A stretch of DNA of 64,000 nt. It comes from Tumebacillus sp. BK434 (lineage in GTDB: Bacteria > Bacillota > Bacilli > Tumebacillales > Tumebacillaceae). Where the stretch lies: NCBI RefSeq assembly GCF_004340785.1, contig NZ_SLXS01000012.1, positions 1-64,000 of the forward strand. The letters are read 5' to 3'. Shown piece by piece: positions 4,404 to 41,806 of the stretch (within the stretch, counting starts at the first letter, position 1; each line of letters starts with the position of its first letter). The translations under genes and the position numbers were made by a program. Below the pieces are notes generated by a model. The model saw nothing but the letters and a program-made list of their open reading frames with translations, did no database searches and was not told the DNA's origin.

Positions 4404-5483
4404 CTACACGTCCCGCCAAATCCGCAGTCCCCCGCCAACGAGCGACTGCCCGCCCATCAGCACCGGAACCCCGCACGAAACGGCCGCCACCGCCATCTCC
4501 CGCAAAAACGGATTCCGCAGTTCCTCCATCATCCCCAGATCGGCCGCAAACCGTTCCTCCTCCGACACCTGCACCCCAAAATGCTCCAGCACCACCCGCG
4601 TGTCAAACAACACACACCCAACCTGCCCCGCCAGCACCTCAAAAAACCGGCTCCAGCCCACAGCCTCCACCAGCGCCCCGACCAGACTCCGCACCTCCCC
4701 GCGCTCCACGCGACCCAGCGCCTTCATCCCCCGCTCCTCCGAAAACACCCGAATCCGCACCTTGCAACTCTGACCAAAGCGTTCCGCCTCGACCGGATGC
4801 ACGCGCCCGATCAGAGCCACATCCGCATACTCCCCTCGCCCCAACACACTTCGTACCTCATGCACCCGCCGCCACAATGGCCATTCAGCAACGGCCTCCA
4901 CCAGCCTCGGACCGCAGCCGGGATGCATTGCAGCCAGCACCCCATCCACCGGCGTATCCAAATCAAACCCAAACCCCAACTCCCCCGGAAAAAACCGCAC
5001 GTCCAGCCCGGCTTGTTCCAACGCATAGCCAAACTCATTATCATTCCTGCACACGTCCACCCCAAACACGCGCTCAGCCGGCCGCCACATCACCAAATCG
5101 GGCGACAACCGATTATTCTGCCAGACCTCTCCCTCCCGGACCGCCTGCGCGACCCGCACCAATTCCCCCGCCTCCAACAAAGGGGCCGCGCACCCGCCCA
5201 TCACCGCCACCGTTTCCCCGGGACGTGCCGCAGCCCGCACAACATCCTGCAGAGTCCCCAGCCAGTCAAACGCCCCCTCGGACGTCTCCCACACCAAGCA
5301 CCCCGCCTCCCGAGCAAACAACAAGATCCCCCGATCATCAGACACAACCAAGACACGCAGACTCCCCACCCGAGCCAACTTCTCCACCAAATCAACCGCA
5401 GCCGCCCTCCGAACCCCAAGCATCGCCCCTAGTATCCCCGTCCCCCCACTCCCATATCCTCCAGCCATCACCACCACCAACAT
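4404..5483 (-). CDS. Unrecognised protein with CofC/GT-A nucleotidyltransferase-like features
   Basis: 359 residues from an ATG behind GGGGGA (7-nt spacing); in-frame starts upstream are less well placed. The N-terminus MLVVVMAGGYGSGG resembles the first strand and glycine loop of GT-A-fold nucleotidyltransferases, and FDLDTPVDG near residue 195 resembles the DIDTP motif of CofC/MobA-type enzymes. The usual LxxGxGxRMG-K signature is not intact, so catalytic activity is uncertain. Composition is odd: only 3 lysines against about 35 arginines, with heavy use of GTG, GGG and TTG codons, unlike the neighbouring secA. The 5' side is a long repeat island. A function cannot be assigned from sequence alone. 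Confidence 0.6.
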   Translation of the reverse strand: MLVVVMAGGYGSGGTGILGAMLGVRRAAAVDLVEKLARVGSLRVLVVSDDRGILLFAREAGCLVWETSEGAFDWLGTLQDVVRAAARPGETVAVMGGCAAPLLEAGELVRVAQAVREGEVWQNNRLSPDLVMWRPAERVFGVDVCRNDNEFGYALEQAGLDVRFFPGELGFGFDLDTPVDGVLAAMHPGCGPRLVEAVAEWPLWRRVHEVRSVLGRGEYADVALIGRVHPVEAERFGQSCKVRIRVFSEERGMKALGRVERGEVRSLVGALVEAVGWSRFFEVLAGQVGCVLFDTRVVLEHFGVQVSEEERFAADLGMMEELRNPFLREMAVAAVSCGVPVLMGGQSLVGGGLRIWRDV

Positions 5484-5547
5484 CCATCCATCCCCCATTC
5501 CCATCAATATATCGCCATCTGCACAATGCCATCTTTTCATTGCCCAC

Positions 5548-5679
5548 TTCTCACTGCTCTCTTCTCACTGCTCTCTTCTCACTGCCTTCTACCCTCTGCC
5601 TTCTACCCTCTGCCTCCTACCCTCTGCCTTCTACCCACTGCCTTCTACCCACTGCCTCCTACCCCTGCCTCCTACCCAC
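5548..5679. repeat. 14-bp minisatellite
   Basis: About nine and a half head-to-tail units of 14 bp sharing a CTGC core. The first two and a half are TTCTCACTGCTCTC; from 5582 the unit becomes CTGCCTTCTACCCT with T/C and T/A variants, and one unit is 13 bp. The shared period suggests a single array that diverged by slippage. No spacers or length typical of CRISPR. Confidence 0.9.
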
Positions 5680-5745
5680 TCCCAGCCCTACACCCAGTCC
5701 CAGCCCTACACCCAGTCCCAGCCCTACACCCAGTCCCAGCCCTGC
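5680..5745 (-). repeat. 18-bp array with G-quadruplex motif on the minus strand
   Basis: Three full copies and a partial copy of an 18-bp unit. On the minus strand each unit reads GGGACTGGGTGTAGGGCT, giving about a dozen consecutive GGG tracts separated by loops of 2, 3 and 4 nt. This meets the G3N1-7 definition several times over. It lies upstream of the CofC-like gene on its coding strand. Confidence 0.88.
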
Positions 5746-5777: not shown

Positions 5778-5857
5778 GGGGGGCCCGTCTCCCGAGGAGC
5801 GAGTTTGCGCGGTGGTTTTCCGCGCATTTGTTTGAGCGAGCGGGAGGCGGGCGCCCC
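5778..5857. repeat. Palindromic element 1 (GGAGCGAG...GAGCGGGAG core)
   Basis: Outer arms 5778-5794 and 5841-5857 pair over 17 positions with one mismatch and one G-T. Inside lies GGAGCGAG (5796-5803), a hairpin of 7 bp with stem TGCGCGG/CCGCGCA (5806-5812 and 5820-5826) and a TGGTTTT loop, then a short spacer and GAGCGAGCGGGAG. The same architecture recurs in element 2 with different arm sequences. Confidence 0.85.
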
Positions 5858-5916
5858 GGCGGGGAGGGCAGCGGGACCCGAACTAAGAGTAGCAACGGCA
5901 ACCTGAGTGCATACCG

Positions 5917-6000
5917 GGGCGGAGGGGATATCCTTTCAAGGAGCGAGTCTCACGCGCCCTTTGCGTGATCCGAGCGGGAGAAAGGATATCCCCTCTGCCC
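5917..6000. repeat. Palindromic element 2 (GGAGCGAG...GAGCGGGAG core)
   Basis: Outer arms 5917-5937 and 5980-6000 pair over 21 positions, 16 of them the perfect GAGGGGATATCCTTTC/GAAAGGATATCCCCTC. Inside are AAGGAGCGAGT, a 6-bp hairpin TCACGC/GCGTGA with a GCCCTTT loop (5950-5968), and CCGAGCGGGAG. Core motifs match element 1; arms and inner stem differ but stay complementary, as in a structured repeat family. Confidence 0.87.
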
Positions 6001-6038
6001 GGGGCACCCAACACCCAGCACCCAGAGCACCCAAATAC

Positions 6039-6066
6039 AAAAAAAGCCGACCCCCAAGGAGCCGGC
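6039..6066 (-). terminator. Terminator after hpf
   Basis: Minus strand: GCCGGCTCC, short loop, GGGGGTCGGC, then seven T. It directly follows the hpf stop. Confidence 0.88.
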
Positions 6067-6076
6067 CTATCATAAC

Positions 6077-6634
6077 CTAAGCAAAAGTCGGTTCAATCAA
6101 CCCATACTGCCCATCTTTCCGCTTATACACCACATTCACTTCCTCCGTCTCGGCATTGCTAAAGACGAAGAAATCGTGGCCCAGCAGATCCATCTGCATA
6201 ATCGCCTCATCGACCGGCATGGGTTTCACAGCAAACTTCTTCACGCGAACGACGTCGCCGAAATCCTCCTCATCCTCCACCAACACGTGGACATTGCCCT
6301 CGCCTTGTTCCTTAAACAGAGAATGAGTGCCTTCCTGACGCACCCGCTTATTGAGTTTCGTCTTATGCTTCTCGATCTGCTTCTCCAGCTTATCAGAGAC
6401 AGTATCGATCGAAGCATACATATCGCCCGAGCGCTCCTCAGCGCGAATGACGAACCCATTGATCGGCATCGTCACCTCAACGGTGTGGTAATCTCTCACC
6501 ACAGACAGAGTGACGTGCACGGTATGTTCGGTTGGAGCATGAAAGTACTTTTCCAGACGTCCGATCTTTTTCTCAACGTACTGATGCAGAGACTCAGTCA
6601 CCTCAAGATGGTTACCGCGAACTTGGATCTTCAT
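6077..6634 (-). CDS. hpf: Ribosome hibernation promoting factor, long form
   Basis: 185 residues, the long HPF type that dimerises 70S ribosomes into inactive 100S particles during stationary phase. The N-terminal S30AE domain (residues 1-100) has the beta-alpha fold sequence MKIQVRGNHLEVTESL and a basic patch KHKTKLNKRVRQ. A linker follows, then the C-terminal dimerisation domain from about residue 125 (VVRVKKFAVKPMPVDEAI). The start ATG sits behind GGGAGGAG. A sigma-H-type promoter lies 29 bp upstream, matching the known stationary-phase control of B. subtilis hpf (yvyD); sigH itself is in this window. Monocistronic: terminators flank it on both sides. Confidence 0.96.
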   Translation of the reverse strand: MKIQVRGNHLEVTESLHQYVEKKIGRLEKYFHAPTEHTVHVTLSVVRDYHTVEVTMPINGFVIRAEERSGDMYASIDTVSDKLEKQIEKHKTKLNKRVRQEGTHSLFKEQGEGNVHVLVEDEEDFGDVVRVKKFAVKPMPVDEAIMQMDLLGHDFFVFSNAETEEVNVVYKRKDGQYGLIEPTFA

Positions 6635-41502: not shown

Positions 41503-41690
41503 TGTTGCTGCACCTCCTTCCAAAGTTTCAAGTCCACAGAGCCCGGTGGCTCATGGTTAGGCAAATGAAAAAGGTAAGTGGCGAACTAACTCAGATCAGC
41601 CAGCCAAAATACCTAATGACAAGCGATGTGCGACACAGTCACCAGCAACATGACTGCTTGTCTTAACGATGACTTCAGGCACACTACGAG

Positions 41691-41719
41691 ATTGTATCAC
41701 CTAGTTTGCAGGAAGTCAA
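41691..41719 (-). promoter_or_regulatory. str-operon promoter (sigma-A)
   Basis: Minus strand: TTGACT at 41719-41714, 17-bp spacer, TACAAT at 41696-41691. Two mismatches in all. About 190 bp before rpsL; apart from this promoter and the rpoC stem-loop the 304-bp gap holds no gene. Confidence 0.8.
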
Positions 41720-41765
41720 CACCTCCGGACGGATCACATTACTTTTTTCGCGCAGTCAGCGGGAA

Positions 41766-41797
41766 GGCGCCCGCCGTGAGGGAGCGCCTTCCAGTGA
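41766..41797 (-). other. Stem-loop after rpoC, without T-tract
   Basis: Minus strand: GGAAGGCGC, 13-nt loop, GCGCCTTCC. A 9-bp perfect stem 10 nt after the rpoC stop, but followed by CGCTGACTGCGCG instead of T. It may be a weak terminator, an mRNA 3'-end protector or a processing site. Confidence 0.6.
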
Positions 41798-41806
41798 CTT
41801 GCATGA

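Follow-up and report, generated by a model that had tools for sequence, protein, structure and literature searches.

An interspersed palindromic repeat with a constant core and differently paired arms in Tumebacillus and other Bacilli: probable selection on a transcribed hairpin

ERIC repeats are dispersed, intergenic and co-transcribed long stem-loops with an orientation-dependent effect on the upstream mRNA (PMC2229807, PMC2267715). They carry 7-bp TIRs and a target site duplication (PMC2229807) and occur in enterobacteria and V. cholerae (PMC2267715). The NEMIS, or Correia, elements of Neisseria are described as small repeats whose transcript stem-loop is a substrate of RNase III (PMC2229807, PMC2649163), with 24-bp TIRs and a target site duplication (PMC2229807). 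REP elements associated with RAYT are high-copy extragenic palindromes of 20-40 bp, one end of which bears a GTAG or CGTC tag; the GTAG type has a Y1 transposase (PMC3733652). The kink-turn combines a C helix with a 3-nt bulge and with sheared G-A pairs (PMC9723947).

The 64,000-nucleotide stretch of Tumebacillus sp. BK434 DNA analysed here (the window) contains two palindromes on the plus strand, A (5778-5857) and B (5914-6003), with 56 bp between them. Both have the layout GGAGCGAGT, inner hairpin, GAGCGGGAG, enclosed by self-complementary arms that are unrelated between A and B. The arms of A (5778-5794 and 5841-5857) pair over 17 positions, with 15 Watson-Crick pairs, one G-T and one mismatch, and also pair in the predicted fold. 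They enclose the 5' core GGAGCGAGT (5796-5804, with GCGAG at 5799-5803), an inner hairpin (5806-5826; stem 5806-5812/5820-5826 of 7 bp, loop of 7) and the 3' core GTTTGAGCG (5830-5838, with GAGC at 5834-5837). The arms of B (5914-5937 and 5980-6003) match over 24 positions, with 22 Watson-Crick pairs, one G-T and one mismatch. Here the 5' core GGAGCGAGT is at 5940-5948 (GCGAG at 5943-5947), the inner hairpin at 5950-5968 (stem 5950-5956/5962-5968, seven pairs in the fold including one G-U), and the 3' core ATCCGAGCGGGAG at 5968-5980 (GAGC at 5972-5975), its ends overlapping the neighbouring parts. All these parts are read on the plus strand.

The shared core can be written GCGAGT ... RYYYGAGC, flanking the inner hairpin. 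This pattern occurs twice in the 64 kb and not once in 100 shuffles. Taken singly, neither GGAGCGAG (5 found, 3.7 expected) nor GAGCGGGAG (2 found, 0.7 expected) is rare in the window; what is rare is the GGAGCGAG/GAGCGGGAG pair around a hairpin within a palindrome. The folding z-scores are -4.9 for A and -7.0 for B, and in each case none of 200 shuffles was equally stable. The arm pairing, the folds and the shuffles thus bear out the original prediction of paired palindromes with a common core and differing self-complementary arms. Its statement that these are not simple terminators also holds, in that no T-run directly follows either palindrome in the window.

A and B sit between the end of hpf (6077-6634, minus strand; ribosome hibernation-promoting factor, TIGR00741, PF02482) and a 378-aa ORF (4404-5540, minus strand, start probably at 5483), and are antisense to both. 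They lie, as predicted, beyond the intrinsic terminator of hpf, which is located at 6044-6068 on the minus strand. Between 5400 and 6800 a single promoter-like site was found, also on the minus strand. The 378-aa ORF is conserved in Tumebacillus: five other genomes of the genus have it close to hpf, with 49-76% identity. It has no family in Pfam or NCBIfam, and its interpretation as a CobT-like protein was dropped on the same grounds. C-rich tandem repeats of 14 bp and 18 bp adjoin the elements at 5527-5743; such repeats are expanded near the elements both here and in the genome G002 (L004, 1739-1886), on opposite sides of the array. The BK434 assembly comprises 4.65 Mb in 32 contigs, and the closest named relative found is T. 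avium (hpf 96% identical).

A five-copy covariance model identified the repeat in five of seven Tumebacillaceae genomes, with 2 copies in G000, 3 in G002, 3 in G003, 2 in G004 and 12 in T. lacus (G005), where eight of the 12 are in rRNA/tRNA operons. None was found by this model in T. avium (G001) or G006. One of the 23 Tumebacillaceae matches of the second model described below, G003:C1:426353 (E 0.009), was dropped, as it is a palindrome without the core. This weakly matched long palindrome of G003 (L121, 1501-1627) is perhaps a diverged or an unrelated repeat. G002 belongs to the same genus as BK434, and in its corresponding gene gap there is an array of two A-type and one B-type hairpins. 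The array also includes decayed, unpaired copies in 112-bp tandem units with an A-like 5' half and a B-like 3' half.

A second covariance model returned the same five genomes among 14 of the order. In a sample of the class it found the repeat in seven of 398 genomes, a search that scored 10 candidates per genome and may thus have missed weak or rare copies elsewhere. The two genomes added, G341 and G377, are from a single genus, which is part of a second Bacilli family. A model made for that family found the repeat in four of its 18 genomes and had no match in the other 14. Three of the four have dozens of copies: the matches number 88 in G341, 74 in G377 and 136 in G787, counts that include both strands of each palindrome, so that copy numbers are about half. 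G785, from another genus, has 4 matches. The strict core pattern matched 17 of the 398 genomes of the class sample, although a backward control gave occasional matches too. Seven of these genomes have true members of the repeat family (G000, G002, G003, G004, G005, G341, G377). The other ten, together with L003 and an additional G002 match, L238, fail the arm test: none of them pairs at more than 10 of 18 positions. In a phylum sample of 398 genomes the strict pattern matched the BK434 genome alone, and none of 80 hpf loci taken from named genomes matched the Tumebacillaceae model.

A viral origin was rejected: a pattern scan of viral contigs yielded 88 stretches, the best with 14 paired positions before the fourth mismatch, and as all 88 failed the arm check they are taken as chance matches. 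Plasmids matched neither the window element nor the second-family unit, and phages did not match the latter. At the gathering score, Rfam had no match at A or B (sub-threshold matches had E 0.3 or worse), in 16 Tumebacillaceae loci or in 10 second-family loci. In the searched part of the literature on hairpins, repeats and small RNAs of Tumebacillus no description of such elements was found, and within that literature the repeat family appears to be undescribed.

Each copy is about 80-100 nt long (model matches 88-100 nt) and consists of a long palindromic stem, a near-invariant internal loop and an inner hairpin. The stem has at least 13 well-kept pairs in Tumebacillaceae and, in the second family, as many as 26. 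The repeat resembles ERIC/IRU and the Yersinia repeat YPAL in being a single long stem-loop, dispersed and intergenic; YPAL and ERIC are transcribed. Unlike in ERIC, the arms vary between copies around a fixed core, and no target site duplication is evident at the one site examined; this separation is by description, not by sequence. NEMIS/Correia elements are likewise small dispersed stem-loop repeats, but no such internal-loop core appears in the descriptions cited. With REP elements the repeat shares the character of a high-copy extragenic palindrome; it differs in its length of about 90 nt, in having no conserved end tag and in the lack of a Y1 match in Tumebacillaceae. Size, tag and transposase all fail, and membership in REP/RAYT was rejected for Tumebacillaceae. 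By eye, the 17-copy alignment described below has no conserved tetranucleotide outside the core. CGTC does occur in one arm type of the second family, beside the core and not at the end.

Selection on structure, one of the explanations offered in the original prediction, is supported by covariation among relatives. Seventeen of the 22 known Tumebacillaceae copies were aligned, leaving out five near-identical rRNA copies of T. lacus. The arms and the core align without internal gaps, columns 1-21 pair with columns 76-96, and for columns 9-21 every pair is intact in at least 15, and up to all 17, of the copies. Both sides have changed in 24 of 34 pairs, which none of 500 shuffles reaches, and the covariation score is 0.575, compared with 0.198 in shuffled data and at most 0.202 in six versions with the partners slid. 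In the second family, 10 of 12 copies were aligned (90% alike; two near-identical orthologues left out), and both sides have changed in 8 of 37 pairs, again not reached in 500 shuffles. Since the copies are related, these shuffle counts are not probabilities. All eight doubly changed pairs of the second family are in the arms, and the core and inner stem are constant in the 10 copies, so this alignment informs on the arms only. In Tumebacillaceae both the arms and the inner stem vary between copies yet stay paired, around a constant core. The original prediction had weighed against itself a result of just two copies genome-wide with no covariation in relatives and no transcript. The first of these stands for the BK434 genome, where neither the exact pattern nor the later covariance model found copies besides A and B; the second does not, covariation having been found in relatives. 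It had also named a match to a known IS end; in searches bearing on this, covering the Y1 type of transposase, none of seven Tumebacillaceae genomes had a match, and plasmids had none to the window element.

The core is the least variable part. All 20 aligned copies, drawn from both families, have GCGAGT and GAGCG without variation, and several arm types surround them within single genomes: T. lacus has the rRNA arm type plus others, and in the second-family genomes arms such as GGAGTCATATATTGCGCCC and GGATTCACATGCTGTGCCC flank the same core besides ACGGATCATGCAT... arms. Base pairs were counted over 61 distinct exact-core copies, with GCGAG and GAGC imposed by the search; these were preferred over 67 copies with at most one core mismatch because most of the six additional rows are register artefacts. 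GC-GA-GU opposite RYYY-GA-GC permits a G-C and a C-G pair and tandem G.A/A.G; pairs 31-65 and 32-64 come next, leaving a bulge of two pyrimidines. Pair 31-65 is G-U in 60 copies and G-C in one, and pair 32-64 is U-G in 56, C-G in three and U-A in two. Thus the core pairs are mostly wobble, and pairing is kept when they change. Position 66 is U in 35 copies and C in 26, and behaves as unpaired. By its sequence the core may be called kink-turn-like, with tandem G.A beside a short pyrimidine bulge.

Mispairs in the arms bear on the choice between RNA and DNA. G-U exceeds A-C by 36 to 8 over 50 copies and by 37 to 7 over the 61 exact-core copies. Counted as distinct column-pair events, the ratios are 15:5 and 4:1, so that G-U accounts for 19 of 25 events (p 0.015). 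Some of this excess could come from mutation of C to T on the non-template strand. The orientation of the copies points the same way. All eight copies in the rRNA/tRNA operons of T. lacus are sense: five between 23S and the next RNA gene, two further downstream, and one before 5S at a contig end, with 23S out of view. At 40 other loci, with genes called by ORF score and covering the returned loci rather than all copies, 16 copies between co-directional genes are sense and four antisense (p 0.012, orthologues counted); with orthologues collapsed by hand the numbers are 14 and 3 (p about 0.012). Among 29 second-family copies, six are between divergent genes and two, between co-directional ones, are antisense. 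The balance favours a transcribed RNA, because G-U exceeds A-C among the arm mispairs, the core G-U pairs are kept and the copies are mostly sense. These data support RNA, read on the strand as written, as the form under selection.

Thus A and B are paralogous members of an interspersed palindromic repeat family, which probably spreads by mobility and in which the transcribed RNA shape is probably under selection. The best reading is an interspersed hairpin repeat similar to ERIC and NEMIS, unusual in its fixed core and freely re-paired arms. Such a small mobile repeat would spread into intergenic regions and rRNA spacers and be retained where the transcribed hairpin does no harm or is of use. 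Its long stem may serve as a 3'-end or processing structure, either an exonuclease barrier or an RNase III site, and the kink-turn-like core, with its tandem G.A beside a short pyrimidine bulge, could be a site recognised by a putative protein. Several observations count against this reading: the window copies lie past the hpf terminator in antisense to the genes on either side, the single promoter-like site nearby is on the minus strand, some second-family copies are between divergent genes or antisense, the G002 array includes decayed unpaired copies, the region is absent from T. avium, and no mobiliser was found in Tumebacillaceae in the search for Y1 transposases.

A somewhat unlikely alternative is that the repeat is mobile purely at the DNA level, MITE- or REP-like, the palindrome being a transposase substrate and its complementarity kept by transposition or by template switching in the arms. 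The copies are indeed dispersed, the decayed copies of G002 are chimeric, and both filled and empty sites, as looked for in MITEs, were found upstream of recA and in the T. lacus rRNA spacer. The region upstream of recA (PF00154) is filled in G787 and lacks the element in G341; between matching stretches G787 has 263 bp more, element included, and G377 has other sequence. No target site duplication is evident there, in diverged flanks at the one site examined. The 23S-5S spacer of T. lacus exceeds an element-free spacer of G001 by 158 bp and one of G003 by 178 bp, and the rRNA spacers of relatives compared with T. lacus (G001, G002) do not contain the element. The gap between hpf and the ORF, with elements in both BK434 and G002, is 593 bp in BK434 and 72 bp, without elements, in T. 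avium. By secA, T. avium is closer to BK434 (98.9% identity over 456 residues) than G002 is (94.1% over 817), so the region was probably lost in T. avium, unless it was gained twice. The filled and empty sites and the absence from T. avium make this a mobile or dispensable repeat. The mobile repeat family proposed in the original prediction is supported in the same way, by these sites and by the occurrence in five of seven Tumebacillaceae and four of 18 second-family genomes.

The asymmetry of G-U over A-C, the kept core G-U pairs and the sense bias speak against mobility purely at the DNA level. Template switching, in particular, is disfavoured by the G-U excess, as it would favour neither G-U nor A-C. 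In favour of this alternative, the Y1 transposase of REP elements (PF01797) matched in all seven second-family genomes tried. On the other hand, three of these have no element match, and there was no Y1 match in any of the seven Tumebacillaceae genomes, the BK434 assembly included. When 30 Y1 loci were searched with the second-family unit, two contained part of it: in one a repeat mosaic adjoins the gene, and in the other a copy is about 900 bp away. Of the 14 second-family Y1 loci whose flanks were inspected, one adjoins a repeat mosaic.

A more elaborate form of the preferred RNA reading, which we regard as unlikely, is a portable RNA module: a mobile repeat built around a fixed kink-turn-like protein-binding loop with free helices, spread by a mobiliser in Tumebacillaceae and using one host protein to act on many transcripts, among them rRNA precursors.

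It is doubtful that the element is instead a kink-turn RNA acting in cis, with YlxQ or another L7Ae-type protein as the ligand and dispersal as a secondary matter. The resemblance is to the kink-turn of PMC9723947: the repeat would set a tandem G.A opposition, constant in the 20 aligned copies, beside a pyrimidine bulge between two helices, and the U and C at position 66 fit an unpaired base. However, the kept pairs 31-65 and 32-64 leave a bulge of 2 nt, not 3 nt, and the adjoining outer helix is just two pairs long.

YbxF is a known kink-turn binder. Its usual place is the rpoC-rpsL gap. In BK434 no YbxF-like ORF was found in this gap (window 41524-41806, minus strand; flanking genes named by eye from translations), which counts against the kink-turn element.

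Unusual transcription terminators or attenuators are very improbable: the element starts at most 110 bp behind an own-strand stop codon in 15 of 40 loci, TTTGTTT follows the inner hairpin of A, and in the second family a T-rich stretch stands about 20 nt past the stem in several copies and a terminator-like hairpin upstream of some, but the T-run directly behind the stem that marks an intrinsic terminator is absent, copies occur within rRNA operons, in the space from 23S to 5S, as well as between closely spaced genes of the same strand, and A and B are antisense and past the hpf terminator.

In near-identical repeat families structure and recent ancestry are hard to tell apart. Here one core is combined with differing arm pairs, both inside a single genome and between the two families, and therefore selection on a repeat at the RNA level becomes directly testable, by compensation in the arms against invariance of the core. 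The rRNA operons of T. lacus, with eight copies found and all sense, provide a ready-made assay of processing. Should the core be recognised by a protein, a mobile repeat would be tied to a defined RNA-binding site.

The 23S-5S and 23S-tRNA spacers of G001, G002 and G000 (L313, L327, L328, L316, L338) contain a different unit, GCGGTAGATCGGCTAA ... GCGACGTCCTGTCGC ... GCCGATCGAC, in 0, 1 or 2 copies per operon, where T. lacus carries the element of the present family. Palindromic elements of G787 are adjoined by intergenic mosaics (L273, L276, L279) in which a unit of about 75 nt is repeated in tandem; the unit has the form GGGATAGAC-TTCATG-hairpin-CACCAACAACCGGGAAGAAAAT-hairpin-TTTTC. Four loci of G341 (L352, L355, L358, L361) have the 5' module of the G787 unit alone, which is also found in G377. 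In L352 this module is itself a full hairpin, with a further arm type and the same core.
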